Under the pieces are notes generated by a model, which saw nothing but the letters and a program-made list of their open reading frames with translations, did not search any database and had not been told where the DNA came from. A DNA stretch of 45,786 nt, taken from IMG/VR virus record IMGVR_UViG_3300010370_000064, positions 1 to 45,786 of that record. One strand, given 5' to 3'. The position numbers were made by a program, and so were the translations under genes. Shown piece by piece: positions 2 to 45,786 of this stretch (the first letter of the stretch is position 1; the number at the start of each line of letters is the position of its first letter). The stretch comes from a virus.

Positions 2-538
2 CCCGTAGTTTTTCTTCTCAAAAGATCCGGTATTTCTTCCGACCGTCCTAGTGGAACAATTGTACAAGGAGGGGAACCTGCCCTTTGTTTTGGTGCAGCT
101 GATCCAGGACTGTATTTCGAAGACTCAGCAGGATCTATACGTAAGATAGGTCCAAGCCACTACGGAACAACTGCGCCTAACGCTACACCTGCGGGTATTG
201 CGGGAAACTCTGTCGGTGAACTCTGGACGGACAACTCCAGCTCAAACTATTACCTAAAAGTTTGGACGGGATCTGCTTGGCAGAAAATTGGAGGAGGCTT
301 TGCAGATAGCTCGAATACAGCAAACTCAGCTACGAGTGCCGGAACTGCAAATAGCTGTATCCAAGCCTCCGGAGCAGTTCTTTCTTCCGGCGTGGTAAAA
401 AGTTCGGATATAGGCGTTAGTGGATTACCAAACCCAACTTTATACGGATCCGGTGCTCTCTTTTATCAAATTCAAAGTTCCGGTTCGTTCTCCGCAGGAC
501 TTTATATTAATTTCTCTTCTAATTGGACTCTTACTTAA
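2..538 (+). CDS. Tail fibre / receptor-binding structural protein, C-terminal part (5' truncated by window edge)
   Basis: An open frame enters from the left edge and stops with TAA at 536-538, giving about 178 residues. The translation contains a 'GELWTDNSSSNYYLKVWTGSAWQKIGG' type block (around residues 75-100). The same W-D-x-x-x-L-x-V-W/Y-x-x-x-W motif occurs three times in the fibre protein at 8446-9378. The rest is Ser/Gly/Ala-rich with 'ANSATSAGTANS' and 'ASGAVLSSG' stretches, as in phage fibre shafts and tips. The C-terminus is a short beta-rich end. It overlaps the convergent Dps-like gene by 4 bases. It is probably the last gene of a rightward fibre module lying outside the window. 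The fibre assignment is by composition and shared motif, not by a recognised domain. Confidence 0.75.
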   Translation, partial: PVVFLLKRSGISSDRPSGTIVQGGEPALCFGAADPGLYFEDSAGSIRKIGPSHYGTTAPNATPAGIAGNSVGELWTDNSSSNYYLKVWTGSAWQKIGGGFADSSNTANSATSAGTANSCIQASGAVLSSGVVKSSDIGVSGLPNPTLYGSGALFYQIQSSGSFSAGLYINFSSNWTLT

Positions 539-1068
539 TCCCGAAGTGTTGCCTTAAGAAACCAGGCAGATTTAAACATAGAACCAACAAGTTCGGCTAA
601 ATAATTTTCTATATCAGGCGCTTCTACTTCTTTCGCCACTCCTACTACTTCTTTCGCCATAAAGCCGCAGGCTTCTAAGTTTTTAGCGTACACCGTCAAC
701 ATTTCTCTGGCATCATAGGATTTAACATGTTTAAATGATTTACACGCTGACTGTACACCTTTAGCGCACATAGGCATTAAGTAGTCCATAGAGCGGACTA
801 ATTCGCCCAAAGAATCAAACTGCCCTATATGTGCTTCGTACTGTTCTTTTAAAAATTCGTGTACTGGGAGGAAAAGCGGACCTTCAATATTTAAGTGAAT
901 TAAGTGTGATTGAAGATACAACTGATTAACGTAAGAACCTAAGGAAACGAGGTTGTTGATTAAAACATCCGCCGTGGCCTTAGGTTCCATCTCCTGCTCT
1001 TCGGTAACCGCGATGCCCACAACAGGAGCAGGCATAGAGGTCATATCAAAAGAACCGGAGTAAGTCAT
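535..1068 (-). CDS. Dps-like mini-ferritin (DNA-protection / ferroxidase family)
   Basis: The 177-residue protein carries the Dps signature H-L-N-I-E-G-P-x-F-x-x-V-H-E-F (residues 58-72). Aligned without gaps to E. coli Dps as I remember it, the inter-subunit ferroxidase ligands are all kept: H58, H70, D85 and E89 correspond to Dps H51, H63, D78 and E82. Dps D67 is replaced by Lys (K74). The four-helix length fits the family, and the N-terminal ~30 residues are an extension rich in Met/Pro/Glu. Dps dodecamers oxidise Fe(II) with H2O2, store iron and can coat DNA. The start ATG lies 1 base after the stop of the upstream HTH gene, so the two form an operon. A phage copy could protect DNA from photo-oxidative stress or buffer iron during infection (inference). 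Confidence 0.8.
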   Translation of the reverse strand: MTYSGSFDMTSMPAPVVGIAVTEEQEMEPKATADVLINNLVSLGSYVNQLYLQSHLIHLNIEGPLFLPVHEFLKEQYEAHIGQFDSLGELVRSMDYLMPMCAKGVQSACKSFKHVKSYDAREMLTVYAKNLEACGFMAKEVVGVAKEVEAPDIENYLAELVGSMFKSAWFLKATLRD

Positions 1069-1475: not shown

Positions 1476-1724
1476 ATGACGATTCGGTTAGCAGGGGAGG
1501 TTTTTAAAGGGTACAACCAACCGAAACGAGACGTGCAGAGCGGTAAAGAGTATTCCGTGGCAGCTAAGGAAAATGGCGAAGTTAAGTTAGTCAGATTTGG
1601 GGACCCAAATATGGAAAACCGTAGCGATGACCCTAAACGACGCGCTGCGTTTAGGTCTAGACATAGTTGTGATGAAAAGAAGAGTAAATTAACACCAGGC
1701 TATTGGAGCTGCAAAAATTGGTGA
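1476..1724 (+). CDS. Small conserved phage protein with RHxCD...YWSCKxW signature
   Basis: 82 residues. It begins M-T-I-R-L-A-G-E-V-F-x-G-Y-N-x-P-K-R and ends 'YWSCKNW', with an 'FRSRHSCDEKKSK' block between. I recognise the layout (IRLAGE..GYN.PKR, an IRFG-like strand, R-R-x-x-F-x-x-R-H, then YW..K.W) as a small family common in cyanophages and other marine phages, of unknown function (I believe DUF5754-like). Its place at the head of a rightward run before the lysozyme suggests a late, virion-associated role (inference). Its I-R-L-A-G element recurs in four other proteins of the window. The start ATG follows a weak AGGA. Confidence 0.7.
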   Translation: MTIRLAGEVFKGYNQPKRDVQSGKEYSVAAKENGEVKLVRFGDPNMENRSDDPKRRAAFRSRHSCDEKKSKLTPGYWSCKNW

Positions 1725-1808
1725 GTAGAAAGTTAAAGAAGATCTATGGGTACAACTTTTCTGCTTTTATTCGAGTAGAGCTAGACTTTAATTAGTTGGC
1801 TCAGTACC

Positions 1809-2063
1809 ATGGCTTCACGTAAGTCCGATGAGTCTCAGAATATTCACTGCGGTTTGACACTGGAGGATGAATTTGTCCTTACGCGGATTAGGACAAAAGC
1901 GCACTCACTAAAAGATAAAGAAAGAGATCAATATCTTTGGACTACAGTTTTTAGGTTAATTTGTCGAGAGCGAGCTTACAAAACAGTTATGAACGAAGTT
2001 GGGATAGCTATGGACACAAATATGAATCTTTTTGACGACGACGAACCCGCCGTCGAAGTTTGA
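1809..2063 (+). CDS. nblA: NblA-like phycobilisome degradation adaptor
   Basis: 84 residues. Residues ~16-67 line up without a gap with cyanobacterial NblA as I remember it: 'LTLEDEF' (NblA LTLEQEF), then 19 residues to 'YL' (NblA FL), 14 residues to 'RERAY' (NblA R-E-x-x-Y), then a short amphipathic helix 'KTVMNEVGI' (NblA '..LLKHEWGL'). NblA is a ~60-residue helical adaptor that bridges phycobilisomes to the Clp protease during bleaching; phage copies are known from freshwater cyanophages such as Ma-LMM01. This copy has about 15 extra N-terminal and an acidic C-terminal extension (FDDDEPAVEV). It sits between two rightward late-type genes. Sequence identity is low, so the call rests on spacing and key positions. 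Confidence 0.68.
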   Translation: MASRKSDESQNIHCGLTLEDEFVLTRIRTKAHSLKDKERDQYLWTTVFRLICRERAYKTVMNEVGIAMDTNMNLFDDDEPAVEV

Positions 2064-2108: not shown

Positions 2109-3494
2109 ATGAACGAGGTAGACTTTTTAGAACAATTTAGAGTAACACCAGAAGGACAACGTTTATTAAAAACTATACAATACGCTGAAGGTACGCTTGG
2201 TTCCGATCCCTACCGCGTAATGTTCGGTGGCGGGCGTTTTAATGATCTTACTAAACACCCCGATACAGTTATCAAAAAAGGGGGGTATAGAAGTGCTGCA
2301 GCAGGAGCATATCAGTTTATGCCGGATACATATCAGGGATATGCCTCTCGTTTAGGGCTCTCTGATTTTGGTCCGCGATCTCAAGATATTGCAGCCTTAG
2401 CTTTAGCCAGGGAAAAGTTAAAACCCATCGGCGGTTTAGCCGCTCTACAGAAAGAAGGGTTCAGTCCACGGGTGTCTGCAGCTTTAGCCCCCGCGTGGGC
2501 CTCGTTTCCGACTCTTGAGGGAAGGAGTTATTACGGCCAACCTGTAAAGAATCTAAGCGAACTTCAACGGTTTTATGGGTCTGCTCCTGTCGAACAACTG
2601 GGTATCGACGGCGGTCTTTCTGCTTCGCAAAGTGCCCCTTCAGCTCCTGTAAGTCCTGTATCGTTACCTAGGTTTGATATTAATCAAGGTCTTATAAATG
2701 AGTATAAAAATATTCTTAGTCCTTTAACTCAAGAACAAAGCACAGACGCTACAGAGACATATAGCCAACTTGCAAATGCTTTAGAGGAAACAGGATTAGA
2801 ACAAAACAATCAAGAGTTAATCGACGCTGCAGAGGAATACCGTAGACAAGCTCGTTCTGCGTCACTTGAAGAACCTCAGGTGGATCCCGTATCCTCTGTA
2901 TCGTCTCTAATAAAAACTATTGTAAAAGGCAATCAGTATAACGAACAAATTGCTGCTTTAGAACAACAAATAAACCAATCTTTAGGTGTTTCTGCTGTTG
3001 GACAGAATCAAGGACAACCCATTACCGATGTGAGAAGTACTTCTCTTAAGGGAGTGCAAATAACGGATCCAACGGACAAAGAAGGTTTTGATTTTGTGAT
3101 CGAAGGCGGGAAACGAGGGGCACCATTTTCGGCACCGTTTACCGCCGAGGTCCTAAAAGTTGTACAGGATCCGCGTGAGTTTAACCTAGAAAAAAACCCC
3201 AACGCCCCGCGTGGGTATGGTAATCGCGTTGAATTACGCGTTACGGATCCTTCCACGGGCAAAAAACACGATTTGTTGATTGCTCATTTCGATAAAGTAA
3301 ACCCCAACTTAAAACCGGGACAACTTGTTCAACCAGGAACTTTTATAGGAACGCAAGGACGTACAGGGTCAACTACGGGAGCACACATCTCTATTGATGG
3401 CTTCGATCCCGGTTCAACGACCACCAGCCCGGAAACACTACAGTTTGTTTATAAAATTCGAGATAGACTGGCTAAAGGTATTAGTCCTCTGTAG
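2109..3494 (+). CDS. Peptidoglycan hydrolase: GH104-type lysozyme domain plus degenerate M23-like module
   Basis: 461 residues. The N-terminal ~150 residues match the lambda-endolysin/GH104 pattern: 'IQYAEGT' with the likely catalytic Glu, 'YRVMFGGGRFNDL..HP', 'SAAAGAYQFMPDTYQGY', then 'DFGPRSQDIAAL'. The middle (~175-290) is Gln/Ser/Ala-rich with coiled-coil character. The C-terminal ~120 residues have the LytM/M23 barrel layout ('GFDFVIEGG', 'AHFD', 'GTQGRTGSTTGAHIS'). However, the first zinc His (H-x-G-x-D) is Lys and the final H-x-H is H-I-S, so zinc catalysis is unlikely and the module may bind or be structural. Length and late-gene context favour a virion-associated lysin over a free endolysin (the latter is probably 20558-21799). 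The next gene starts 2 bases after the stop. Confidence 0.82.
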   Translation: MNEVDFLEQFRVTPEGQRLLKTIQYAEGTLGSDPYRVMFGGGRFNDLTKHPDTVIKKGGYRSAAAGAYQFMPDTYQGYASRLGLSDFGPRSQDIAALALAREKLKPIGGLAALQKEGFSPRVSAALAPAWASFPTLEGRSYYGQPVKNLSELQRFYGSAPVEQLGIDGGLSASQSAPSAPVSPVSLPRFDINQGLINEYKNILSPLTQEQSTDATETYSQLANALEETGLEQNNQELIDAAEEYRRQARSASLEEPQVDPVSSVSSLIKTIVKGNQYNEQIAALEQQINQSLGVSAVGQNQGQPITDVRSTSLKGVQITDPTDKEGFDFVIEGGKRGAPFSAPFTAEVLKVVQDPREFNLEKNPNAPRGYGNRVELRVTDPSTGKKHDLLIAHFDKVNPNLKPGQLVQPGTFIGTQGRTGSTTGAHISIDGFDPGSTTTSPETLQFVYKIRDRLAKGISPL

Positions 3495-8445: not shown

Positions 8446-9378
8446 ATGTCCGAAATAAACGTACCTTCTTGTCCGACACACGGGAGTGAACCTAGGGCTT
8501 TACACGCACATAACTTTGCAGGTATTGTCCAGGTTATTGACCAACTTATTTCAACCGTAAGCGGCGTGGGAACTACAAGCTACTCCCGGTGTCCTTACGG
8601 ATACCCCTGGAACTTTGAGGGTGTTGTCCGCGCCCTAGAGGACTTAAACACCAGTATCAGCGGGATAACTGCTGGAGGGGGAGGTACAACTAATATTCAG
8701 GCTGGTTCTGGTATTTATTTCTCGTCTAGCGGTACAGCCACTGTTATAAACGCAACAATAACCTCATCTTCTGGTCTTCTTTACACTGCAGGTTCTGGTT
8801 TGTACCTTGTTGGAGGTACGCAGTTTAACGTTAACTATGATCAAGTATTTCAAGGATCTGTATCGGGGCATGTCCTTGGCCAGGGTTCTAATACCGCTCT
8901 TTACAGCGGCAATGCAGTCATTATTAGCGGAACTGATACTCAGGGTGGAGGATCTGCCGTTGTTGTATCTGGCGCTCCAGGTAATTCCTATACCGCTGGC
9001 GCCCTGTGGTACGACACAAACCAAGGCAGATTATTCGTATACGCAAGTGGAAACGGTGTAACGTCCCCTGATTGGTATCAGACTAACGCCGAAGCTCTTG
9101 CTTACAAGAGTGAACTTCCACCTTCCGGATCGAGTACCGGAGCACCTGCCCGAGACGGCTCGCTTTGGTTCAACAGCTTGCTCGGTTCGCTGTTCGTTTA
9201 CGACGCGACCACAAGTGGATGGTACGAAACAGGCCCCAGCCGTGGGATTAGTTACAGTCCTGCCGCTCCTGCCCCAAGCACTGACGGTGCTGTTTGGGTT
9301 GATTCAGATACAACTCAAATTCGTGTCTGGAACGGTTCATCTTGGGCCAACATTAATGTTGATGGAGGTGTCTACTAA
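8446..9378 (+). CDS. Tail fibre protein with three W-x-x-x-G-x-L-x-V-Y repeats
   Basis: 310 residues. The N-terminal ~75 residues ('VPSCPTHGSEPRALHAHNFAGIVQVIDQLIS...') are probably the virion-attachment part. A Gly/Ser/Thr beta-rich shaft follows. The last ~120 residues contain three copies of a motif: 'GALWYDTNQGRLFVYASG...DWYQT', 'GSLWFNSLLGSLFVYDATTSGWYET' and 'GAVWVDSDTTQIRVWNGSSW'. The same motif lies in the truncated protein at the left edge. A good GGGAGG precedes the ATG. Its stop overlaps the next start (TAATG). It is the first of about nine consecutive rightward fibre-type genes. Confidence 0.78.
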   Translation: MSEINVPSCPTHGSEPRALHAHNFAGIVQVIDQLISTVSGVGTTSYSRCPYGYPWNFEGVVRALEDLNTSISGITAGGGGTTNIQAGSGIYFSSSGTATVINATITSSSGLLYTAGSGLYLVGGTQFNVNYDQVFQGSVSGHVLGQGSNTALYSGNAVIISGTDTQGGGSAVVVSGAPGNSYTAGALWYDTNQGRLFVYASGNGVTSPDWYQTNAEALAYKSELPPSGSSTGAPARDGSLWFNSLLGSLFVYDATTSGWYETGPSRGISYSPAAPAPSTDGAVWVDSDTTQIRVWNGSSWANINVDGGVY

Positions 9379-10322
9379 TGGCTAACTTACAGCTCTGCAA
9401 ACGGACAGCATCTGGCGTTGTTCAAGGTGATCCATTAATTGGACAACTTGTTCTTGATACTGTTTCTGGTTATTTATATACAACTCGGGGTGACGGCGCT
9501 CTTGTTTTAATCAATAACGGTGTTCCGGGGCCTATTGGGCCCAGCGGCGTTGCCGGATCCAACGGCATTGCCGGACCCAGTGGCGTTGCCGGACCCAGTG
9601 GCGTTGCCGGACCTAGTGGTGTTGCCGGACCCAGTGGCGTTGCCGGACCTAGTGGTGTACAAGGCCCCGCGTTTACTGGCGGAACTTTAACTAGTAGTTT
9701 AACGTTAGCCACCGGCACTGCCTCTATTGCTCCGTTATCCCTGCAATCCGGCACCAACTTGACCACCGCGACGGCTGGCGCGGTTGAATACGACGGCAAG
9801 GTGATTTACAGCACGCCTGCAGGGCGTGGCGTATCACCGTCAATGATGTTTTATCGAGTAAATAGCAACATTGTTGGCCTAAACTCAACACTAAACCAAG
9901 CCATATTTGGCGTCGGTGTTGACCTTGTTGCAAACACAGTTTACGCTTTTGATGGTTTTGTTTATCTCTCCAAAACAGCGGGAACAACTTCGCACTCGCT
10001 ACAAATAACCTTTTTAAGTACAGCCACATACAATAATTCTTTTGTTTTTATGGATTGCACGGGCTCTGGTGCAGGTGTAAGTACAAACTGGGGGACGCTA
10101 GGCACTACATTCACCGTGCAAAGCAATATCACAAGTGCAAGTTCAGCTACTATTGTGCGAATAACTGGAAATGTAAGCGTTAGCGTAGGTGGAAAATTAA
10201 CCCCTCGGTACAACTGTACTGTTGCTCCTGGTGGGGCTTATTCAACAGTTATTGGAAGTTATTTTTCTATATGGCCCCTTGGTGCTGCTGGCGCCAACAC
10301 CTCAGTGGGACCGTGGACATAA
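9378..10322 (+). CDS. Collagen-like tail fibre protein
   Basis: 314 residues. The N-terminal ~45 residues repeat the 'G-x-L-V-L-D-x-x-S-G-x-L-Y-x-x-x' fibre motif. Residues ~50-95 are a collagen-like Gly-X-Y stretch built on G-P-S-G-V-A. A ~200-residue globular C-terminal beta domain ('[22 protein letters not shown]' region and beyond) is the probable host-binding tip. Collagen repeats make trimeric rods in many phage fibres. The 18-bp coding repeats are nearly identical, a common site of length variation. Confidence 0.8.
9546..9653 (+). repeat. Six 18-bp tandem repeats encoding collagen-like G-P-S-G-V-A
   Basis: Units of the form GGCGTTGCCGGACCCAGT follow one another six times; units 3-6 differ only at C/T positions (GGC/GGT, CCC/CCT), and the first two are more diverged. 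The array encodes (G-V-A-G-P-S) repeats in frame with the fibre gene, so copy number can change without a frameshift. Confidence 0.9.
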
Positions 10323-16246: not shown

Positions 16247-16606
16247 ATGGCCGGCAAACTTGTAAACGGTGTATTTATCCCTTACACACCTGAGGAACAG
16301 ATTAAATACGAAGAAGCGCTTGTCGAGCACGACAAGTTTATAAATGATCTTGCTTGGTATGAGTTGCGCCGCAAGCGTAATTTTTTACTAACCTCCTCCG
16401 ATTGGGTTGTTACCCGATCATTGGAAGATGGGCAACCTGTTCCTACAGATGTTGTTAATTTCCGCGAGGCCCTACGAGTAATTACCGTGGGCCTCGATGA
16501 TCCGACCAAAGTCGTTTGGCCCCTTATTCCAGAGATTGTCGCTAAATCTATCTTGGAAGAGCCGGAGCCTAAGGTAAACCCGTACTTAGCGACTATAAGT
16601 CCTTAA
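16247..16606 (+). CDS. Tail-fibre assembly-type protein
   Basis: 119 residues from ATG 16247, with AGGAG ending 10 bases upstream. A TTG at 16241 in the same frame is closer to the AGGAG than usual. The protein carries 'YELRRKRNFLLTSSDWVVTRS' and a later 'VVNFREALRVI', matching the R-x-x-R-d-x-L-L-x-x-S-D-W ... Y-R-q-a-L-R pattern of phage tail-fibre assembly chaperones. It closes the rightward fibre run, the usual position for such a chaperone. The 3' end overlaps the convergent glycosyltransferase by 14 bases. Confidence 0.68.
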   Translation: MAGKLVNGVFIPYTPEEQIKYEEALVEHDKFINDLAWYELRRKRNFLLTSSDWVVTRSLEDGQPVPTDVVNFREALRVITVGLDDPTKVVWPLIPEIVAKSILEEPEPKVNPYLATISP

Positions 16607-17492
16607 ATAAATTAGAACAGCTTTTAGTTATCTCGTTTTTCCACACAGTCTTCCACTTGTTCCACAAGGCAGTACAGTCCTCTTGTCTTTTTAGAAACTC
16701 GCTTTCTGACATATTTTTTATTGTGTCTATACAGTTTTCCCAAGAGTCTTCAATGATAAAGGGGAGATCGTACTCTCCGTAAAATATTCCATGCCAATAA
16801 GAAGGGTAAATCTTGAACTGATTAGAGTATTTTAAAGTTACAGGAACGCACCCGGCTTCGAGCGCTTCGTAGAGTCGGAAAGAATCCATACTGTCTTGTC
16901 CTGGAGGGCATAGAGCGTATTTACTTTGTTTTAACATCTTGGTGTATTCTTGTGTTTCTAATCCATCTTTGGCATCAAAACCGCTGCAGCAATGAGTTTT
17001 ATTTGGAGTCAAATCTTTGAATAGAGAAAGCATCACAGCCCTTTCTCCGTGGGGTGTACCTGCGAAACACCAAAGCGTGTCTCTTTCAACTTTTATAGAG
17101 TTTACGTAGTTTTGCAATCCTCTTTTATAGCCTAGACCAAACGTAGTTACCTTAGGGTGCTTGATTAAGGCAGGGTGTATGTAGTTTCTAAAAGACTTAA
17201 TACAGTGGGGATCATGTAACCACTCACACGGGTCTATAAGATTTTCGTCACTGAGAGAAACTAAAATGTACTTTTTACCGTTGTGGCGCAGCTTATCTAA
17301 AACTTCTCTATAAGGTACAGCGTGATTACAAATCAATACTGTATTTTTGTCCGTTTTAACTTCGCTAGCGTTGAAGTAGATTTCTATCTGTCCTTCTACG
17401 CCGCTAAAAAGATAGTTAAGCCAATCTACTTCAAACATTGTCGGGTCAGAGCTTAACCACTGAACCTTTGTCACGGACACAGCACGCCTCAA
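16593..17492 (-). CDS. Exostosin-like (GT47-type) glycosyltransferase
   Basis: 299 residues as drawn from a TTG at 17492; GTG 17480 or ATG 17438 are alternative starts. The C-terminal half shows the exostosin-family signature 'YTKMLKQSKYALCPPGQDSMDSFRLYEALEAGCVPVTL' (~residues 190-227): F/Y-x-L-C-P-x-G, R-L-y-E-a-l-x-x-G-C-x-P-V. No signal peptide or membrane anchor is seen. It is a single leftward gene inserted between rightward modules, which suggests independent control or recent gain. It may glycosylate a virion protein or alter the host envelope (inference). Confidence 0.75.
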   Translation of the reverse strand: MRRAVSVTKVQWLSSDPTMFEVDWLNYLFSGVEGQIEIYFNASEVKTDKNTVLICNHAVPYREVLDKLRHNGKKYILVSLSDENLIDPCEWLHDPHCIKSFRNYIHPALIKHPKVTTFGLGYKRGLQNYVNSIKVERDTLWCFAGTPHGERAVMLSLFKDLTPNKTHCCSGFDAKDGLETQEYTKMLKQSKYALCPPGQDSMDSFRLYEALEAGCVPVTLKYSNQFKIYPSYWHGIFYGEYDLPFIIEDSWENCIDTIKNMSESEFLKRQEDCTALWNKWKTVWKNEITKSCSNLFKDL

Positions 17493-17528: not shown

Positions 17529-17912
17529 GTGTTATTGCGGGCACCTTCGTTGGAATGTAGGCATTGCGTAGCTGAGCTTTATCGAGCTGATTCCGCTAAG
17601 CTAAACGATGAAGCGTATGTGCGTCAGTCTTTAGTAAATGCTGCCGACTTAGCTGGAGCTACCTTGCTGGACATAAAGACTCATGCGTTTGAGCCACAGG
17701 GTATTACAGGGTTTGCTCTTTTAGCTGAATCGCACATTTCGATTCATACGTGGCCTGAGCACGGTTTTGCCGCTGTTGATGCTTTTACCTGCGGTTCTTC
17801 GACTAGACCAGAGGTAGCCTGTAGTTATCTCGCAGCTTGTTTTGATTCCCGAGGGCACAGTATTTCTACCATCGACCGTAGCAGCCCGTCTATTGCCTCT
17901 ACCGTATGTTGA
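17529..17912 (+). CDS. speD: S-adenosylmethionine decarboxylase proenzyme
   Basis: 127 residues. SpeD decarboxylates SAM to supply aminopropyl groups for spermidine. The self-cleavage site 'AESHISIHTWPEHGFAAVDAFTCG' is intact: S68 becomes the pyruvoyl group after cleavage at E67-S68. H73 and C88 keep the spacing (5 and 15) of the processing/catalytic residues in the Thermotoga type. The protein has the usual length of a bacterial class 1b proenzyme. The start is taken as GTG 17529 and is uncertain. speD is an established auxiliary gene in cyanophages, thought to raise polyamines for DNA packaging or host physiology. Confidence 0.9.
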   Translation: MLLRAPSLECRHCVAELYRADSAKLNDEAYVRQSLVNAADLAGATLLDIKTHAFEPQGITGFALLAESHISIHTWPEHGFAAVDAFTCGSSTRPEVACSYLAACFDSRGHSISTIDRSSPSIASTVC

Positions 17913-17959: not shown

Positions 17960-18781
17960 GTGTTTAAGAAACGCTATTTCTTTAACGCTGGGCTGCCTCG
18001 CAGTGGTAATACTGTATTATCGGCAATACTTAATCAGAATCCTGACGTACAGTCTTCTGCTAATAGCTTGTTATGCGACCATTTGTTTAATACTGCACTT
18101 TTATATCAATCCGAAAAGTTTCGTAATTTTCCTGACTCTAAATCACTTCACAACCTTCTCTCTAGTAGTTTTGACGCTTACTACGCTGATTGGGAATACA
18201 AGTACATTATCGACAGAGCCCCGTGGGGAACACCAGTAAACTTAAGCATACTTAAAGCTATATTTGGAGATGATTTAAAGATTATATGCCCTGTGCGCGA
18301 TATTGTAGAAATTATTGCTTCGTTTATTAGGCTTGATCCTTCGCGTCTTAGACAAGAACTTCAGCAGGAAATAGCAGCCGATAGAAGATTTTATCTATCT
18401 TATAAAGACGAAAAGGAGATATTTTGTGAGCTTATTTCGGCGCCTAAGAGTCAACTTGACGTAAGCTTATTCTCTTTACATAATCTTCTTTCGCCAGAAA
18501 ATAGAAAGTTCCTACATATTATTGAGTACAAAGACTTTATCACAGACCCCTTAACTTCTTTGAAAGCTATCTACGAGTTTTTAGATATACCTTATTTTAA
18601 GCATGATGTAGAAAATATAGGAATTTTTAGTGCAAACAACGTTGAGTACGATGATTCTACAGTTGCAAGCAATTTACATACTATTAGAGATTCGTTAAGT
18701 TCTCCAGAGTACTGTACTTCTGAAGTTCTTCCTCCCTATTTAATTTCTCGTTATAGTCATTCAGAGTTTTGGCGTAAATGA
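17960..18781 (+). CDS. Sulfotransferase family protein
   Basis: 273 residues from a GTG start. The 5'-phosphosulfate loop 'NAGLPRSGNTVLSAILNQNP' lies at 9-28 (G-x-P-R-S-G-x-T). The 3'-phosphate motif follows near 110-122 ('ICPVRDIVEIIASF'), and the C-terminal 'HIIEYKDFITDPLTSLKAIYEFLDIPY' is typical of PAPS-dependent sulfotransferases. It would transfer sulfate from PAPS to a sugar or a tyrosine. With the nearby glycosyltransferase it could modify phage fibre glycans or host surface polysaccharide (inference). Low-GC and rich in rare-start genes like its neighbours. Confidence 0.82.
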   Translation: MFKKRYFFNAGLPRSGNTVLSAILNQNPDVQSSANSLLCDHLFNTALLYQSEKFRNFPDSKSLHNLLSSSFDAYYADWEYKYIIDRAPWGTPVNLSILKAIFGDDLKIICPVRDIVEIIASFIRLDPSRLRQELQQEIAADRRFYLSYKDEKEIFCELISAPKSQLDVSLFSLHNLLSPENRKFLHIIEYKDFITDPLTSLKAIYEFLDIPYFKHDVENIGIFSANNVEYDDSTVASNLHTIRDSLSSPEYCTSEVLPPYLISRYSHSEFWRK

Positions 18782-29132: not shown

Positions 29133-29156
29133 AACTAAAGTTTTTGTTTGGGTTCG

Positions 29157-29489
29157 ATGAGCTTAGCCCGAATTCCGTGGCGCGTCTATCTGATTGGAGG
29201 TATCGTGATCATGTACGTCCTAAAGAATATGTTAAATCTTGCATGGACAACTCCTGAGCAGGACTTCCAGCACCACGCGATCATGCGGGACGCGGACAAG
29301 CTTGATAAGGAGCAGCTTTTAGAGATCTTTGGCGCTGTTCATAAACAGTATCAATTACGTAGTCATCTTTTTTCAAAATTAATTCGTTGGTGTGCCAGAA
29401 ACCAAGTTATTCTCCCGCCTTTGTCCGAGCTACTAGAACCCAATGATTCCTCCCATCCTTTGGAATCAGAACGAAACCTATCCGACTGA
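29157..29489 (+). CDS. Single-pass membrane protein, lone rightward gene
   Basis: 110 residues from ATG 29157; a TTG 9 bases earlier is in frame. Residues ~8-25 'WRVYLIGGIVIMYVLKNML' form a transmembrane helix. The rest is a charged helical domain ('DKLDKEQLLEIFGAVHKQYQLRSHLFSKLIRW'). It is the only rightward gene in a long leftward module. It has no visible Shine-Dalgarno, and its 3' end overlaps the convergent gene 29407-29820 by 83 bases. Function unknown. Confidence 0.6.
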   Translation: MSLARIPWRVYLIGGIVIMYVLKNMLNLAWTTPEQDFQHHAIMRDADKLDKEQLLEIFGAVHKQYQLRSHLFSKLIRWCARNQVILPPLSELLEPNDSSHPLESERNLSD

Positions 29490-36886: not shown

Positions 36887-38437
36887 TCACCGGAGACACC
36901 TCTGTATGACATCTATAGTGCCGTCAGTATTATAGATATTGACTGCGTATACTTCATCGCTAAATTTTTTACAGATATCTGGTACGGAAGTGTTAATACA
37001 AACAGTACTCCATTGAATTCCTTTCTCGCTTTTTAGCTTATTAAGTCTGTTAATAAAATTCTGGTTTACTTCGCTGTTACCATCTGTTATCATGAGCACG
37101 TCTGCTCTATCGTCCTTACAAGCTTTGTCCACAGCGTGGGCCAAAACAGCATTAAAACTGGTGCCACCCCCTAAAGTCCAGCTACCAACGAAGTCAATTA
37201 ATTTACTGTTCTCCGTTCTATCCCTTGATAGCGTTACTGAACCGTCTATCCGCGTGTCGAATAAATGAATCTGAACTTCACGCTTGTCCTTTAAAGCTTC
37301 TTCCGCAATTACAAACGCGATAGCTTTGCTCCACGTCTCAGCCTCACCCCCCATTGACCCTGAAACGTCAACGTACATGATGATTGGACCCTTACCGATG
37401 TCCTTACGGGAGGAGGTATAGTCCTTTGTCAGCAGGGTTTTGTAGGAGTACTTAAGGGCAAACAGAGCCTTCCCCTCTTCGGACGCAGCAAGGCTTAGTT
37501 CCGTGGGGAAAGCCTGGACGATGTTGTTGTCGAACTTAGCTCCAGTAATTGATTCGTAATTATCTCTTACCTTCCGGGCTTTTTTCCTTTCCTGCCAGAT
37601 TTTACGGAGAGCCCCTAGTTTTTTTGCTAGATTTTTTAGCTCCTTGTTTTTGGATAATTTATTTGCTAGGTCTCTTTTGCTTTTAAGGTCCTGCCTGTGG
37701 GAACCTATTCCGGGCTGAGAGCCGAACAAAGCACTCATCTCACTCTCAGTATTTTTGGAATCTTCATTTGCTTTATCTACAATACTATTTGATTGCGCTT
37801 GTATAATCGTCTTAGCTTTACCCATTGCCTCGATTATCTTCTGGCCTAGTTCTTTTCCTTCTTTCCTAATAGCGTCAGCTTTATCTTGGTTTCCTTCGTC
37901 TATCGCTTTTTTATACTCCTCCCTAAGCTCCTGAAGTTTATCCGCTGATGCTACGAGAAGATCAACGTCAAACTGATTTTGTTCAATAGCTTCTTCGATA
38001 ACTTTCGAGAGATCGTTGAGTATGTTTATTGCGTTGTTGCCGGCTTTAAATTGATCCCCCACGCAATGGCGAAGGAGTTCATTCCACCCCGCCGTCTGTG
38101 TCAGGTCCTCCATGATTGCGTACCATATCCCGTTTTCGGGTTTGTATCCCTCAGGCATCGCTGTAGTATCTCCGTCGCAAACTTTTCGAAAGTACTCTTC
38201 GAAAGAGTTCAAGGATACAAGCCACTTAACATCGTCTCCGTTATAGAGACGTTCGAATATTTCTTTACCGAACCTAGATAGCTGACGAATACTGTAGTGC
38301 TCTGTCAGATACGTAACGAGTGGGCGAGAGTCGCGGATAAAATCCTGCCAAAGGAAATCGGCTAAAGCCGAGCAGTAGAGAGTAAGAGGGTCGTCGCTAG
38401 AAAGACGAACGCCCTCCGTGGATTTAATCGGTTCCAT
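36887..38437 (-). CDS. ViaA-like von Willebrand A domain protein
   Basis: 516 residues. The C-terminal ~200 residues are a VWA domain with an intact MIDAS: D-V-S-G-S in 'GPIIMYVDVSGSMGGEAETWSKAIAFVIAEEAL', T in 'LGGGTSFNAVL', and D in 'VLMITDGNSEV'. The flanking sequence matches E. coli ViaA as I remember it ('GPFIVCVDTSGSMGG...'). The N-terminal ~300 residues are helical, with a Lys/Glu coiled coil and 'LAKKLGALRKIWQERKKARKV', also ViaA-like. It lies 10 bases after the MoxR/RavA-type gene. Such AAA+/VWA pairs act as metal-dependent chaperones or chelatase-like remodelling machines. Confidence 0.82.
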   Translation of the reverse strand: MEPIKSTEGVRLSSDDPLTLYCSALADFLWQDFIRDSRPLVTYLTEHYSIRQLSRFGKEIFERLYNGDDVKWLVSLNSFEEYFRKVCDGDTTAMPEGYKPENGIWYAIMEDLTQTAGWNELLRHCVGDQFKAGNNAINILNDLSKVIEEAIEQNQFDVDLLVASADKLQELREEYKKAIDEGNQDKADAIRKEGKELGQKIIEAMGKAKTIIQAQSNSIVDKANEDSKNTESEMSALFGSQPGIGSHRQDLKSKRDLANKLSKNKELKNLAKKLGALRKIWQERKKARKVRDNYESITGAKFDNNIVQAFPTELSLAASEEGKALFALKYSYKTLLTKDYTSSRKDIGKGPIIMYVDVSGSMGGEAETWSKAIAFVIAEEALKDKREVQIHLFDTRIDGSVTLSRDRTENSKLIDFVGSWTLGGGTSFNAVLAHAVDKACKDDRADVLMITDGNSEVNQNFINRLNKLKSEKGIQWSTVCINTSVPDICKKFSDEVYAVNIYNTDGTIDVIQRCLR

Positions 38438-38447
38438 TTAAGTGTTT

Positions 38448-39638
38448 TTAGTTAGAGATTTCGCTGATTGCTTGGGCCAGAGTGTCGCAATGTGCTTGCA
38501 GATTTCGCTGCAGTTTTACTCCTGTTGATCGAGTTGTGATGTTCATTCTGAAACGAGTACCATCCAAGATTTCCCCCACTTTGTCACGGACTAATTGCAT
38601 ATCCTTATGGTACTTGCGCAGTAAGACCACGTAAGCGTTTAGATCCTCCAGCCCCCTGGCTTTTTGCTTGTGGGCGTTACTGGCGTATTCCGACATTATT
38701 CCTGCAGCGGCTCGCTTAGCGTCATTAAACACACGATCAGCCGTAGGGATTTCTTGCTCTAAAACTTCGTTAATTGTGTTTTGATCGTCTGGTGTTTGAT
38801 ACACAATGTGCACAATACTATTATGCAGATGTTCAGGGTACAGTTCGTCATCACCTTGAACGATTGCCCACGCCTTCAAAAATTTAAGGATTTGTACGCG
38901 CCTTCGATCACTGACGGATATGTTTCGGCTTGCCAGCGCATCCCAGACATTACTAAATCGATCTAGGAATTCCTCAGATACCTGAAGTTCCGCAGCTAAA
39001 TCTTGAAGTTGATTGAGTTCGTTCAAGGTAAGGTGAACATCCACTTTGGGCCTCTCGCTCATACCAAGAGCCCACTCATCAAGCTTGCGCTTTGATGTTG
39101 GTTTCTTTAAGAAATTAACCGTGGGCCTAAAAAGAAATCTATCGGCAAAAGCTTGCAACGATTCTTCGTCTGGCCAACTGTTTGTTGCGGCAACGATTGA
39201 CTGAATAGGTGTTTCGATAACATCCTTACCGTTGTTAAATGTCCTTTCGTTTAAGAGCGTAAGAAGTGAATTAAGGATCGCGGAGCTACCTCGGAATAGC
39301 TCATCTAAAAATCCGATGTGTGCACTTGGGAGATAACCATCAACGTCTCGGGTATATTCATCCTTTAGAAGTTTCGTCACTGCAACCGGACCAAACACTT
39401 CAGATGGATCTGTTGTGGGCGTTAAAAGATATCCGAAGTAATTTGTGTTCTCTATACCCTTACACATGCTACGAACCAAATCAGACTTCCCTGTCCCCGG
39501 AGCCCCGAGTAAAAAAGCGTTTTGTCTGCTGATTAAAGATGCTAGTAGTCCGTCGATTACGGACTCACGCTCCAAATTTGCAGCGTTGAGGGCACCTCTA
39601 AAGTTTTGAAGTTTTGAGAAAAGAGAATCGCTGATCAT
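38448..39638 (-). CDS. MoxR/RavA-family AAA+ ATPase
   Basis: 396 residues. Walker A is 'LLGAPGTGKSDLVRSM'. 'YLLTPTTDPSEVFGPVAV' and Walker B 'IGFLDELFRGSSAILNSLLTLLNERTFNNG' are MoxR hallmarks (E. coli RavA has '...STPEEVFGPLSI', '[28 protein letters not shown]'). Sensor 1 is 'SIVAATNSWPDE' and an arginine finger region 'FADRFLFRP' follows. The C-terminal ~180 residues are helical. Its downstream partner is the ViaA-like VWA gene. T4-like cyanophages carry genes labelled cobS from the same broad ATPase group; a cobalamin role here is not supported. Confidence 0.88.
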   Translation of the reverse strand: MISDSLFSKLQNFRGALNAANLERESVIDGLLASLISRQNAFLLGAPGTGKSDLVRSMCKGIENTNYFGYLLTPTTDPSEVFGPVAVTKLLKDEYTRDVDGYLPSAHIGFLDELFRGSSAILNSLLTLLNERTFNNGKDVIETPIQSIVAATNSWPDEESLQAFADRFLFRPTVNFLKKPTSKRKLDEWALGMSERPKVDVHLTLNELNQLQDLAAELQVSEEFLDRFSNVWDALASRNISVSDRRRVQILKFLKAWAIVQGDDELYPEHLHNSIVHIVYQTPDDQNTINEVLEQEIPTADRVFNDAKRAAAGIMSEYASNAHKQKARGLEDLNAYVVLLRKYHKDMQLVRDKVGEILDGTRFRMNITTRSTGVKLQRNLQAHCDTLAQAISEISN

Positions 39639-39684: not shown

Positions 39685-39879
39685 CTAAGGAAGCGGCGGT
39701 GAACTATCTGGCGATCCCGGAGGGTTGACCAGCCCGCAACGGCCCCAGTAACCGCTTTGCGCTAGTGGGTTTTGCCAGCGCCTATCGAATGCGGGATAGC
39801 GCGTGTCTGCATTAACCCAGCGGAAACTGCCGATCTTGCCGGCGTGGCTGCAGACATAGATAAACGGAAACTCGGTCAT
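39685..39879 (-). CDS. Small hypothetical protein, Trp/Pro-rich
   Basis: 64 residues, MTEFPFIYVCSHAGKIGSFR onward, with 'WVNADTRYPAFDRRWQNPLAQSGYWGRCGLVNPPGSP'. Rich in Trp, Pro, Gly and Arg; predicted small beta fold. First of the accessory genes after the MoxR promoter region, noticeably higher in GC than the replication module. No family recognised. Confidence 0.5.
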   Translation of the reverse strand: MTEFPFIYVCSHAGKIGSFRWVNADTRYPAFDRRWQNPLAQSGYWGRCGLVNPPGSPDSSPPLP

Positions 39880-39893
39880 CGGAGTTGATCGGA

Positions 39894-40127
39894 CTACTGG
39901 ATCTGGATCGGCGTGAAAGACAGCTCAAACCACTCACCATCGGTGTTGCAGTACAGCAAGCGGGGCGGCGTTGACTGCTGCCAGAACAGTTGGTTTCGGC
40001 AGTTCGTCTCGGTTTCCCAAGGTGGCATTGGACCGCGACGTAGCTTGAAAACTCCGCCATCAGACATGCTTGGGTGGTTAAGACCGATGCCCTTGGCACC
40101 GTCAAAGCCTGCTTCTTGTGGGTTCAT
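39894..40127 (-). CDS. Small hypothetical protein
   Basis: 77 residues beginning MNPQEAGFDGAKGIGLNHPS with a C-terminal 'PPRLLYCNTDGEWFELSFTPIQIQ'. The ATG overlaps the upstream stop by 4 bases (ATGA). No family recognised, though the last segment looks like a short beta hairpin. It is part of the repeated small-gene array. Confidence 0.5.
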   Translation of the reverse strand: MNPQEAGFDGAKGIGLNHPSMSDGGVFKLRRGPMPPWETETNCRNQLFWQQSTPPRLLYCNTDGEWFELSFTPIQIQ

Positions 40128-40336
40128 AGGGCTTCAAGCTCGTCAGCAATTCTGAGCAGCTCATAGCGGATGCCGTAGCTCTCAAGTTTTTCTGGCACCA
40201 CCTGATCCGCAGCAGCGCGAAGGGCGGCGGCAGTAATCCATCGAGAATCATTGAGCACGTCATCCGGGCCATAGCAGCAAGCGCCATTGGCAGCAGCCAG
40301 TACGGCCTGAGCAGCGGGTGAAAGTTGTTGAGTCAT
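40124..40336 (-). CDS. Small paralogue of the LSPAxQAVLxA...IADELE family
   Basis: 70 residues. 'LSPAAQAVLAA' near the N-terminus, 'AAALRAAADQ' in the centre and 'YELLRIADELEAL' at the end recur in the genes at 40643 and 42022. The three form one family of predicted all-helical small proteins, which I recall from Synechococcus and cyanophage genomes without a known function. Its spacer carries the GTTGATCGGACTACT repeat. Confidence 0.62.
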   Translation of the reverse strand: MTQQLSPAAQAVLAAANGACCYGPDDVLNDSRWITAAALRAAADQVVPEKLESYGIRYELLRIADELEAL

Positions 40337-40348
40337 TAGTTGATCGGA

Positions 40349-40621
40349 CTACTTGCCCCAGCGGGCGAGAACGGCGCGGGCAAAATCAATCTCTGGTTCT
40401 CCACTCCAGCTTCGCTCAACCTCCCTTAACAGCTCATTAAGCTCCTCATCCGTTGGTATCTCCGGGACAGGTTCGGCCAGGGCGGCTGCGTTTAAGAAGC
40501 GATCTGCTCGTTCACGCTGGTACTCGATCTCTTGAAACGCCCAGGTCATTGCATCGACCAGCTCATCCTTAGCGAGATCAGTAATCGGCCTGCCCCTGTA
40601 GACGAGAACAGTGTCAGTCAT
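40349..40621 (-). CDS. Small hypothetical helical protein
   Basis: 90 residues. It starts 'MTDTVLVYRGRPITDLAKDELVDAMTWAFQEIEYQRERADRFL', a beta strand followed by a long helix. It then has an acidic linker 'EPVPEIPTDEELNELLREVERSW' and ends 'FARAVLARWGK'. 'YRGRPITDLAKDELVDAM' resembles small phage proteins with an N-terminal 'y.gkpI.dm..deL..aL' block, of unknown role. It belongs to the leftward accessory array. Confidence 0.58.
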   Translation of the reverse strand: MTDTVLVYRGRPITDLAKDELVDAMTWAFQEIEYQRERADRFLNAAALAEPVPEIPTDEELNELLREVERSWSGEPEIDFARAVLARWGK

Positions 40622-40642
40622 GAGAAATAGAAGTGAGATGGT

Positions 40643-40840
40643 CTACTGGGTTTCAAGCTCATCAGCAATGGTAATAAGGTGCTCAACGCGCACAACACAC
40701 ACTTTGCCCTCGTGTGGGTCGTAAAGGTTTTCACTCTGATCCGCAGCAGCGCGAAGGGCGGCGGCAAGACAGCCTTGGCCTGTGTGGCTGGAACGGAAGG
40801 CGTCCAGCACTGCTTGTGTAGCGGGTGAGAGTTCAGACAT
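40643..40840 (-). CDS. Small paralogue of the LSPAxQAVLxA...IADELE family
   Basis: 65 residues: 'ELSPATQAVLDAF' at the start, 'LAAALRAAADQ' in the centre and 'VEHLITIADELETQ' at the end. This is the same three-block layout as 40124 and 42022, with a different central insert (SSHTGQGC before, SENLYDPHEGK after). Function unknown. Its leader is pyrimidine-rich without a Shine-Dalgarno. Confidence 0.62.
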   Translation of the reverse strand: MSELSPATQAVLDAFRSSHTGQGCLAAALRAAADQSENLYDPHEGKVCVVRVEHLITIADELETQ

Positions 40841-40854
40841 AGAAGTGATGTTGT

Positions 40855-41211
40855 CTAATCGGGCAGGGATTCAAGAGCGCGGCGGATTTGGGACAGGTCG
40901 CATCCCAGGCCGTGCATACCCAGATCTGCATTGAGCGTATCTAGCTGCAGTAGCGCCTTTTCCTTCAAGCTCGGCGGCTTGGGGCGTCTGGCGGCGCGAA
41001 GATCTTCCACAGCCTCGTGTTCGTATTTGAACCACGGTTCGCTGACCAGCCACTCACAGCACGCCTCCAGCTCCTGGTCGGCGCCCCATTGAGCGGCGCG
41101 GGTCATCAGCCAGTCTTCGCGGGCAATGCCACCGTCGCGGCAACGCGGAGCCTGCTCTCGCCACTGCTGCACCAGCTCCGGCGGTGGGGTGATGGGGTGT
41201 TCGTGTGTCAT
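40855..41211 (-). CDS. HPITPPPELVQQW-family small protein
   Basis: 118 residues. The N-terminus 'HEHPITPPPELVQQWREQAP' is followed by 'AAQWGADQELEACCEWL', 'LRAARRPKPPSLKEKALLQL' and a C-terminal 'IRRALESLPD'. I recall this architecture as a multi-copy family in Synechococcus and its phages, of unknown function. Paralogues are at 41231 (short), 41430 and 42300. The last 33 bases are identical to those of 42300-42650, a sign of recent duplication or conversion. Confidence 0.72.
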   Translation of the reverse strand: MTHEHPITPPPELVQQWREQAPRCRDGGIAREDWLMTRAAQWGADQELEACCEWLVSEPWFKYEHEAVEDLRAARRPKPPSLKEKALLQLDTLNADLGMHGLGCDLSQIRRALESLPD

Positions 41212-41230
41212 GGGTGATTAGTGGTAATGA

Positions 41231-41437
41231 CTACTCGGCTTCTGGTTCGTAAGGCTGCGGCACTACGGCGTGCATCGCGTCGAGCAACATCTTTTCGTGC
41301 TGCCCGTAGCCCCACTGGGCAGCGCACCTAGCGACGTACATCTCCTCGGGGCTCACTTCGCCAAGATCGCCGCCGTAATACTCCAGCAGCCACTGGCGCA
41401 CTAGCTCCGGCGGTGGGGTGATGGGGTGGTCAGTCAT
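41231..41437 (-). CDS. Shortened HPITPPPELV-family paralogue
   Basis: 68 residues: 'DHPITPPPELVRQWLLEYYGG' and 'ARCAAQWGYGQHEKMLLDAMH', then it ends without the 'RRPKPPSLKEQA' and 'IRRALE' blocks of the full family. The first ~45 bases are nearly identical to those of 40855 and 41430. It could be a truncated copy or a natural short form, since it keeps an intact frame, start and spacer. Overlaps the upstream paralogue's stop by 8 bases. Confidence 0.65.
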   Translation of the reverse strand: MTDHPITPPPELVRQWLLEYYGGDLGEVSPEEMYVARCAAQWGYGQHEKMLLDAMHAVVPQPYEPEAE

Positions 41438-41783
41438 CGAGTTGCTCCAGTGCGCGGCGGATGGGTTCGGCCATTGCTATTGCTCCCTCCGTGGGGATAA
41501 GAGCAATCAAGCGTTTAAGCTCTGCTTGAGCCTGCTCCTTCAAGCTCGGCGGCTTGGGGCGGCGATAGTTATAGAACTCGGTTACATCCTCTTCTTCCCA
41601 TGCAGCGCACTGTTTGAGGTAGTTGCCACAAGCCAAAAGCTCCTGGTCGGCACCCCATTGGGCGGCTTGAGTAGCAATGTGGCGCTCGTAGGCATTGTTG
41701 ACGGCAGCGTTCGCAGGGGCAGACCTTCTCCACTGCTGCACTAGCTCCGGCGGTGGGGTGATGGGATGTTGTTGTTGTGTCAT
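41430..41783 (-). CDS. HPITPPPELVQQW-family small protein
   Basis: 117 residues with the full set of blocks: 'HPITPPPELVQQWRRSAP', 'ATQAAQWGADQELLACGNYL', 'YRRPKPPSLKEQAQAEL', 'IRRALEQLDD'. Central residues differ from 40855, so the copies are diverging between conserved ends. The start overlaps the upstream gene by 4 bases. Function unknown. Confidence 0.72.
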   Translation of the reverse strand: MTQQQHPITPPPELVQQWRRSAPANAAVNNAYERHIATQAAQWGADQELLACGNYLKQCAAWEEEDVTEFYNYRRPKPPSLKEQAQAELKRLIALIPTEGAIAMAEPIRRALEQLDD

Positions 41784-42001
41784 GGGTACATCTCCATTGC
41801 TTGATCAATCAGATCATCAAAGTGCTCAATGCCGTTAAAGCCTGTTCCATTGACATCAAGCTGATGAGATGGATAGTACTTTTCACCTGTATCTGTTTTA
41901 GTCCACGGAGGGCCGTAAATTTTGTTGGTACGAATCGCTAGATTTTTTTGCGCTTTTATCCAGCGGTAACGAGCTGCGTCTTGTGCGTCGGTGTTATCCA
42001 T
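41780..42001 (-). CDS. Small 'DAARYRWIK' family protein
   Basis: 73 residues opening 'DNTDAQDAARYRWIKAQK', a common N-terminal signature of small phage proteins (D-A-x-R-Y-R-x-L). It continues 'YGPPWTKTDTGEKYYPSHQLDVNGTGFNGIEHFDDLIDQAMEMYP', where the C-terminal 'DDLIDQAME' matches the family's 'l...ID.A..'. Function unknown. It is inserted between HPITPPPEL and LSPxT paralogues. Confidence 0.65.
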   Translation of the reverse strand: MDNTDAQDAARYRWIKAQKNLAIRTNKIYGPPWTKTDTGEKYYPSHQLDVNGTGFNGIEHFDDLIDQAMEMYP

Positions 42002-42021
42002 TGGGTGATTAGTGGTAATGA

Positions 42022-42282
42022 CTACTGGGCTTCAAGCTGCTCTGCGGTCAACGCATCCAATTCGTCGGCAACAGCGTAAATGTCATCAACATCAATCACC
42101 AAGCTGTACCAGCCTTCGCCGGTCGCTTCGTAGGCATTTCCACCGACTAAGCCGCGAAGTGCAGCGGCGATTAACGGAGCCATCTCAAGAGCAAATCCCG
42201 GCAACCCTTCAGGCGGGACGTCGTACCGCTTCAACGTCACCGCCGTCAAAACCTCTTTCGTTTCTGGTGATAGTTCTTTCAT
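42022..42282 (-). CDS. Small LSPxTxxVLxA...VADELD family protein
   Basis: 86 residues. 'ELSPETKEVLTAV' at the start, 'PLIAAALRGLV' in the middle, and 'YSLVIDVDDIYAVADELDALTAEQLEAQ' at the end. It is the most diverged of three paralogues (40124, 40643). The expanded centre suggests it is the older copy. Function unknown. Confidence 0.6.
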   Translation of the reverse strand: MKELSPETKEVLTAVTLKRYDVPPEGLPGFALEMAPLIAAALRGLVGGNAYEATGEGWYSLVIDVDDIYAVADELDALTAEQLEAQ

Positions 42283-42299
42283 GGTGGTAGTGAGGTGGA

Positions 42300-42650
42300 C
42301 TAATCGGGCAGGGATTCAAGAGCGCGGCGGATAATTTCCACATCGTATTCTTCATCTTCTGCCGAATCGTGTCCATCCGTGTTCATAAACCTGAGCCAAG
42401 CTTGTTTAGCTTGGTCCTTAAGGCTTGCAGACTTAGGGCGGCGGAAAAAGCGAAGATCGGGAATTTTGCGCATACTTAAAGGTTGGCTTGCCAGCCACTC
42501 ACAGCAAGCCTCCAGCTCCTGATCAGCGCCCCAGCGGGCGGCTTGGGTGGCGACATAAAACTCCCGGCTAAACGGATCAGTTAAGGGGCAATCGCAGGAC
42601 CACTCTTGCGTTAGCTCAGGCGGCGGAGTAATTGGGTGTTCTTGAGTCAT
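42300..42650 (-). CDS. HPITPPPELTQEW-family small protein
   Basis: 116 residues, 'EHPITPPPELTQEWSCDCPL', 'ATQAARWGADQELEACCEWL', 'FRRPKSASLKDQAKQAWL', 'IRRALESLPD'. The 5' part is diverged at DNA level from the other copies, but the final 33 bases (42300-42332) match 40855-40887 exactly. This points to gene conversion at the 3' end. Function unknown. Confidence 0.72.
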   Translation of the reverse strand: MTQEHPITPPPELTQEWSCDCPLTDPFSREFYVATQAARWGADQELEACCEWLASQPLSMRKIPDLRFFRRPKSASLKDQAKQAWLRFMNTDGHDSAEDEEYDVEIIRRALESLPD

Positions 42651-42675
42651 TGTTGAACCTCGTAGTGTGTAGAAC

Positions 42676-43071
42676 TTACGAACCCATCGCCAGTTGTAAA
42701 TGAGCGGCCAAGATGTGCTTACAGCAGGGCTCCTGACCGCGCTCCATCATGAAGTGGGCATCAGTGCAAGTGCAGCTCCACTTTCCTTCAATGCCCTTTG
42801 CATAGGCACCAGTGCGGATGACGGTGTGGGCGTCAGTGTTGGTGGTGGGATCAAACACCATCCACACATTGTTGGCGATATATCGGGCATGACAAGCTTG
42901 AGCACGAGCCATGCGCTGCTTGGCTTCCCAGGAATCAAACACCTTCCGGCTCATGAAGCGAGGGCCGCGCTCGGTGCGGATGACCACGCAGTGCTGCAGC
43001 ACATTGAGCACTGTGATGCCAAGGGCCTCTTGGGCCTTCTTGGTGACGCGGTGATGGGCAGTTGTTGTCAT
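42676..43071 (-). CDS. SWIM zinc-finger protein
   Basis: 131 residues. The C-terminal 'WSCTCTDAHFMMERGQEPCCKHILAAHL' is a SWIM finger (C-x-C-x(n)-C-x-H). SWIM domains bind DNA or proteins and occur in Swi2/Snf2 partners, MuDR transposases and recombination proteins. The preceding 'HARYIANNVWMVFDPTTNTDAHTVIRTGAYAKGIEGK' looks like a small beta domain. A role in host takeover or recombination is open. It heads the 43.1-39.7 kb leftward unit. Confidence 0.78.
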   Translation of the reverse strand: MTTTAHHRVTKKAQEALGITVLNVLQHCVVIRTERGPRFMSRKVFDSWEAKQRMARAQACHARYIANNVWMVFDPTTNTDAHTVIRTGAYAKGIEGKWSCTCTDAHFMMERGQEPCCKHILAAHLQLAMGS

Positions 43072-43182
43072 GGTATTCCAGGGGGGTGCCCTCGCGGGCG
43101 GAATGGTAAGGCGATGAAGGAGTGAACGACGAGCGAACGTCGTGACTGAATGAATCGCCTGTGCCTAGGACTATAGGGTATG

Positions 43183-43208
43183 AAAAAGGCCCCGTCAAGC
43201 GGGGCCTT
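43183..43208 (-). terminator. Strong hairpin terminator
   Basis: On the leftward strand AAGGCCCCG-cttga-CGGGGCCTT is followed by TTT (five U's counting the last stem pairs). It sits 22 bases after the stop of the small secreted-protein gene at 43230 and separates that unit from the SWIM gene. Confidence 0.85.
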
Positions 43209-43229
43209 GAACATTCCGCGAGCAAGCTA

Positions 43230-43412: not shown

Positions 43413-43435
43413 GGTTCCAGGAGGGGGTGAGCTAA

Positions 43436-44560: not shown

Positions 44561-44562
44561 TG

Positions 44563-44955: not shown

Positions 44956-45007
44956 GGTTTCAGGGTCAAACGGTGAGGCTCGCGCCTCGTGCTGGCATTG
45001 TGCCGGA

Positions 45008-45565: not shown

Positions 45566-45598
45566 GGGAAATAGTGAAACGAAACGATGGAAAGAGAG

Positions 45599-45778: not shown

Positions 45779-45786
45779 TTCAACTG

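Follow-up and report, generated by a model that had tools for sequence, protein, structure and literature searches.

A conserved N-terminal motif of cyanobacterial NblA attaches to ClpC and a C-terminal motif to phycobiliproteins (PMC4103541), and the NblA1 and NblA2 proteins of Synechocystis are reported to act as a heterodimer in which each needs the other (Baier et al. 2014, as cited in PMC7966870). Phage-encoded NblA is already known (PMC9602691, PMC4103541) and has so far been described as a host-like gene of particular cyanophages; Ma-LMM01, for example, carries nblA and lacks photosynthesis genes (PMC4103541). By the account given in PMC9602691, expression of phage NblA in cyanobacteria caused loss of phycobilin, phage NblAs of low similarity were active on phycobilisomes, and Nadel et al. 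(2019) reported an active NblA from an environmental phage related to cyanopodoviruses. Here we examine a viral stretch of 45,786 nucleotides (the window), in which a preliminary description had proposed, from the letters alone, an NblA-like protein with an acidic C-terminal extension, encoded next to virion and lysin genes.

The ORF in question lies at exactly 1809-2063 and opens with an ATG. PF04485 was the only Pfam family matched by its product in hmmscan, over profile positions 2-47 of 50, with 17.3 bits (E = 0.0067) against a curated cut-off of 25 bits. No match within family 1, as we call the protein and its viral relatives, reached 25 bits, and we file the family as a divergent homologue within the NblA superfamily, too diverged, by that cut-off, for membership of PF04485. 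PF04485 was matched by 26 of 35 aligned family 1 members (best E 0.0012); any other Pfam family was found in four of them at most. PF04485 itself was above its cut-off in 142 of 194 cyanobacterial genomes and, among 14 control genomes, only in Synechococcus elongatus. In a forward test, a profile built from 20 NblA proteins (18 cyanobacterial, 2 phage) was run with all filters off against 500 ORFs of the window. Two stood out, the one at 1809-2063 with 14.3 bits and the one at 29139-29486 with 15.2 bits; among 9018 reversed ORFs the highest score was 7.3 bits. In the reciprocal direction, the top two matches of a family 1 profile in 291 cyanobacterial genomes were genuine nblA loci, G137:C43:159071-159253 (E 2.0e-6) and G125:C41:714541-714720 (E 2.3e-5), both scored independently as nblA by PF04485 at about 72 bits. 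The other two reciprocal matches were weak (E 0.002 and 0.007). Profile-profile alignment of family 1 with the 20 NblA sequences by hhalign gave a score of 31.5 over 53 gapless columns, compared with at most 15.6 for 100 column-shuffled controls and 9.0 for a reversed one. Taken together, the forward, reciprocal and profile-profile searches with their controls make the protein almost certainly a homologue of NblA.

In the hhalign alignment, NblA residues 3-55 stand gap-free opposite residues 12-64 of the phage protein, bearing out the gapless match of about 50 residues that had been proposed. LTLEDEF (16-22), YL (42-43) and RE..Y (53-57) fall on LSLEQQF (7-13), FL (33-34) and RE..Y (44-48) of Nostoc NblA, and 19 residues separate LTLEDEF from YL, the same 19 as in the Nostoc protein. 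The 14 residues previously counted between YL and RE have to be corrected to 9, as in NblA. Conservation of GLTLEDEF, the segment aligned with LSLEQQF, is at least 90% among the 35 members. Toward the C-terminal side, a hydrophobic V60 stands opposite NblA L51 and N62 opposite K53; the W-G-L tail of host NblA is absent. L51 and K53 of Anabaena NblA are residues that we take to be important in phycobiliprotein binding. By sequence, the phycobiliprotein-binding region of NblA appears not to be clearly conserved in family 1, and the tail differs.

An AF2 model of the protein, of moderate overall quality (pLDDT 67, pTM 0.50), contains helices at residues 18-33 and 37-64. A control model of Nostoc NblA, whose sequence is that of PDB 1OJH, has helices at 9-23 and 27-55, which a 9-residue offset places at 18-32 and 36-64, so that the boundaries agree to within one residue. 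The two checks suggested in the preliminary description therefore both came out in favour of NblA: the profile search returned NblA and no other family, and the predicted fold was the NblA helix-loop-helix with the boundaries of the control. In a profile search of the PDB, two unrelated chains ranked above 1OJH, for which E was 0.49. Foldseek gave no significant match for the phage model in PDB or BFVD; since the control NblA model likewise found nothing there, we do not count this negative against homology.

Table 1. Coordinates in the window of the two NblA-like genes, their sequence elements and conserved neighbours
Feature	Position	Strand	Basis
Dps/ferritin-like protein, conserved neighbour	535..1068	-	PF00210; 61/61 loci
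phrog_7595 gene of unknown function, directly 5' of the NblA-like gene	1476..1724	+	PHROG match
Conserved upstream element AGAGCTAGACTTTAATTAG	1777..1795	+	upstream alignments of near relatives
NblA-like family 1 gene, 84 aa	1809..2063	+	ORF, PF04485 17.3 bits, viral relatives, reciprocal search, hhalign
NblA-homologous region, predicted helix-loop-helix	1854..1991	+	PF04485 positions 2-47; AF2 helices at residues 18-33 and 37-64
Acidic C-terminal tail FDDDEPAVEV	2031..2060	+	alignment of 35 relatives; host NblA lacks this tail
Lysozyme/endolysin-like protein with C-terminal M23 peptidase, directly 3' of the NblA-like gene	2109..3494	+	phrog_90 endolysin
Second NblA-like gene, family 2, 86 aa, MLNLAWTTPEQDF...	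29229..29489	+	PF04485; conserved MLNL start in relatives; synteny

Family 1 has 61 relatives in IMG/VR, and 133 were found with a profile. In most of them the start codon is preceded, a few codons away, by an in-frame stop. The 35-member alignment shows a near-invariant GLTLEDEF followed by LTRIR, RDQ.LW, C[RK]ERA[YF]K, G65 and an acidic LFDD tail. The proposed acidic extension is thus a conserved feature of the family, with LFDD[DE] maintained and F75 invariant. Between the window gene and its near relatives, pN was 0.04-0.12 and pS 0.71-0.97, a sign of strong purifying selection on the protein. Homologues were sought outside the lineage as well: a PHROG search with the 1809-2063 protein gave no match, tblastn found none for it in 50,697 phage records, and no isolate-phage homologue of family 1 or family 2 was detected by tblastn. 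We also considered whether family 1 occurs in cyanobacterial genomes and rejected this; a pattern scan found none, and the significant profile matches were host NblA. Upstream, the element listed in Table 1 ends 13 nt before the start codon at 1809 and reads AGAGCTAGACTTTAAwTAG in near relatives. It is a possible promoter or leader element. It is present as a single exact copy in the window, where near copies are not in excess, and its interpretation as a repeated phage promoter was rejected.

The genomic setting of the gene is maintained as well. The order tail-fibre-like gene (+), Dps (-), helix-turn-helix gene (-) and, later, the NblA-like gene (+) was found in 61 of 61 loci, a count in which several contigs are truncated and some near-identical, the independent cases being fewer than 61. 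A phrog_7595 gene (+) precedes the NblA-like gene in 50 of the 61, and a lysozyme/M23 gene (+) follows it in 55. In the window the latter matches phrog_90 endolysin at E 5.6e-29, with PF01551 at 25.1 bits, below its cut-off. The late, lysis-associated neighbourhood that had been noticed is therefore seen in the window and in its relatives alike. Because the same neighbourhood recurs in 61 of 61 contigs, family 1 is a core late-region gene of this phage lineage and not sporadic cargo. No psbA or psbD was found in the 32 records checked.

A second NblA-like gene (family 2), which had escaped the preliminary description together with the core status of both genes, lies within the replication block of the window as a single + strand gene amid - strand genes, a position that was the same in 48 of 48 loci. 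PF04485 scored the window copy at 19.5-19.9 bits, under the cut-off, and relatives in three records lie above it; 30 of 37 family 2 members matched PF04485 (best E 1.7e-5). In hhalign, family 2 scored 37.9 against NblA, with shuffles reaching at most 18.5. The family 2 profile was found in 27 of the 39 family 1 records searched, and in 14 of 14 of those at least 75 kb long. A longer ORF at 29148-29489 had suggested an N-terminal membrane helix and thus a membrane-anchored second NblA. This was rejected: the relatives start at MLNL, which sets the start at 29229 and leaves no N-terminal membrane helix. The two families scored only 16.4 against each other in hhalign, near the best shuffled controls. 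As each is closer to NblA (31.5 and 37.9) than to the other, the families have the look of separate derivations, and we rejected the idea that a single NblA had recently been duplicated. In a tree of 47 columns, too short for rooting or for dating transfers, the family 2 clade had a support of 100 and family 1 a weak 59, which is consistent with separate derivations and is not proof of them.

At the DNA level, no phage record matched positions 1-25000 of the window. Its DNA polymerase is nearest to those of Pseudanabaena phages (31%). A number of window genes, including Dps, primase, exonuclease and ThyX, have counterparts in the cultured Synechococcus phage S-EIV1, the Dps being 48.6% identical to the S-EIV1 protein. 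S-EIV1 is a distant relative of the window phage, and we infer that the host is a cyanobacterium, probably a Synechococcus-like one. In a published survey in which nblA was scored, S-EIV1 is listed without one (PMC5332604). We found in S-EIV1 an unannotated NblA-like ORF, AHV82245 (KJ410740 73902-74222), with 21.2 bits on the NblA profile and 16.3 bits on the Pfam profile. Like the window gene, AHV82245 has an acidic C-terminal tail, a strongly acidic one, and lies beside a lysozyme gene and near homologues of genes that flank the window gene, a phrog_7595-like gene included; unlike it, the product has 106 aa and the order relative to lysozyme is swapped. The family 1 profile search did not retrieve AHV82245, and no second NblA-like copy was found in S-EIV1.

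How far the window protein departs from described NblAs can be judged from several comparisons. With cyanobacterial NblA (PF04485; PDB 1OJH, 2Q8V, 2QDO, 3CS5) it has in common the LxLExxF motif, the helix-loop-helix and a small size. It differs in its identity of only about 17% (hhalign), in a 9-residue N-terminal extension, in its LTLEDEF/CRERAYK signature and in the conserved acidic tail that replaces the host tail. The NblAs of Ma-LMM01 and PaV-LD are phage-encoded too, and Ma-LMM01 is without photosynthesis genes, as here. Unlike the window proteins, however, those two are recognisably host-like (52 and 45 bits on PF04485), and their genes adjoin nrdA and thymidylate kinase genes rather than lysis genes, with one copy found per genome. 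The cultured Synechococcus cyanopodoviruses S-RIP2 (24.2 bits) and S-CBP3 (15.3 bits) resemble the window in having divergent, sub-threshold Pfam matches to NblA, but their proteins belong to a different sequence family without a tblastn link to family 1 or 2. The S-RIP2 and S-CBP3 proteins resemble each other (VEQEF/MEQQF...DIITxFLALQxQNF). As in Synechocystis, two NblA proteins are encoded in one genome; the window genes, however, are 27 kb apart and mutually dissimilar, and a heterodimer like the one reported for NblA1/NblA2 would be conjecture.

Our analysis favours a phycobilisome-degrading adaptor of the NblA type as the probable function of the 1809-2063 protein. It would be a divergent phage NblA, a small and presumably dimeric helix-loop-helix protein whose N-terminal LTLEDEF segment would engage the host ClpC chaperone and the C-terminal part of helix 2 phycobiliproteins. 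Through it the host antenna would be handed to the Clp protease in the course of infection, which would free amino acids and reduce the light absorbed. Expression would be late, and labour might be divided with the second NblA-like protein. We prefer this reading because the conserved LTLEDEF is in keeping with a ClpC-facing role, though matters are less clear on the cargo side, and because such an adaptor is known in cyanobacteria and their phages. Phage genes that modulate host metabolism, on the other hand, are not usually strict core genes, nor do they usually have a late position. A less likely alternative, to which we give a small share, is a protein that retained the NblA fold and the ClpC-facing motif and was retargeted to another host or phage cargo, or to a role in lysis or virion assembly. 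Such a change would suit a family in which GLTLEDEFxLTRIR is near-invariant, the C-terminal half is unlike that of host NblA, and G65 and the acidic FDD tail are family-specific and conserved. It would also suit a gene locked next to a lysozyme/M23 gene in a phage that already owns a second NblA-like protein. No match points to another cargo, however, and the activity on phycobilisomes described in PMC9602691 for other low-similarity phage NblAs argues against retargeting.

That NblA works as a dimer, as the account of Synechocystis NblA1/NblA2 cited above illustrates, allows for an opposite effect, in which the phage protein pairs with host NblA as a poisoning partner, or blocks ClpC, and keeps the antenna intact during infection; two unlinked NblA-like genes would permit such opposed roles. 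We regard this as rather improbable, as the published phage NblAs promote degradation, the literature searched yielded no precedent for a decoy, and an antenna protector made late, near lysis genes, is less sensible than an early one. Coincidental resemblance of an unrelated small two-helix phage protein is very hard to credit. Two-helix hairpins are simple, the single-sequence scores are sub-threshold and the PDB profile search was not significant; yet the reciprocal search reaches two genuine nblA loci, the hhalign score is double that of the best shuffle, gapless register and helix boundaries agree with NblA, and reversed-ORF decoys stay far lower.

Returning to the phycobilisome-degrading adaptor, what is new here is a pair of divergent families, both core in one lineage, of which family 1 lies in the lysis region; the open-access literature searched yielded no report of two nblA genes in one phage. 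A speculative extension is that the lineage runs a dedicated two-adaptor system for dismantling the antenna, in which two independently derived core NblAs, one from the replication block and the other from the late/lysis region, would either form an obligate heterodimer or act in early/late succession. Such a system might replace the photosystem-maintenance genes that many marine cyanophages use, and its late, acidic-tailed member might have gained a family-specific role (in lysis, or on a different antenna subunit). The findings extend a known viral use of NblA to a new virus group and suggest that it may have a fixed two-part form there: two barely similar families of the NblA superfamily are fixed in a widespread uncultured lineage, with a distant echo in S-EIV1. 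Fixation of both suggests that antenna dismantling can be a core step of infection. The results also suggest that annotation by sequence threshold misses such divergent NblAs, whose naturally diverged sequences would be useful for mapping the residues needed for binding of ClpC and phycobiliproteins. S-EIV1 and its cultured host, Synechococcus sp. PCCC-A2c, make the question testable; a prophage resembling S-EIV1 has also been reported from S. elongatus UTEX 3055 (PMC9239245).

Several other features of the window were observed. An ORF at 9378-10322 (+) contains collagen-like GVAGPSG repeats and is probably a tail fibre. Beside the tail-fibre region, genes for an exostosin-type glycosyltransferase (16593-17492, -), an S-adenosylmethionine decarboxylase (17529-17912, +) and a sulfotransferase (17960-18781, +) are clustered. 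At 36887-39638 (-), a MoxR-like ATPase, conserved in relatives and with a homologue in Aphanizomenon phage CL131, adjoins what may be the von Willebrand-type protein that usually partners it. Across 39700-45786, GC content rises from about 44% to 55%; the region contains a series of short - strand paralogues (ITPPPELVQQW...) and an RlpA-like DPBB gene (43436-43861) similar at the DNA level to many cyanobacterial genomes. The possibility that this right end (39.7-45.8 kb, GC 55%) is host DNA was rejected: relatives carry the ITPPPEL paralogues and the RlpA-like gene downstream of the ATPase, indicating that it belongs to the phage.
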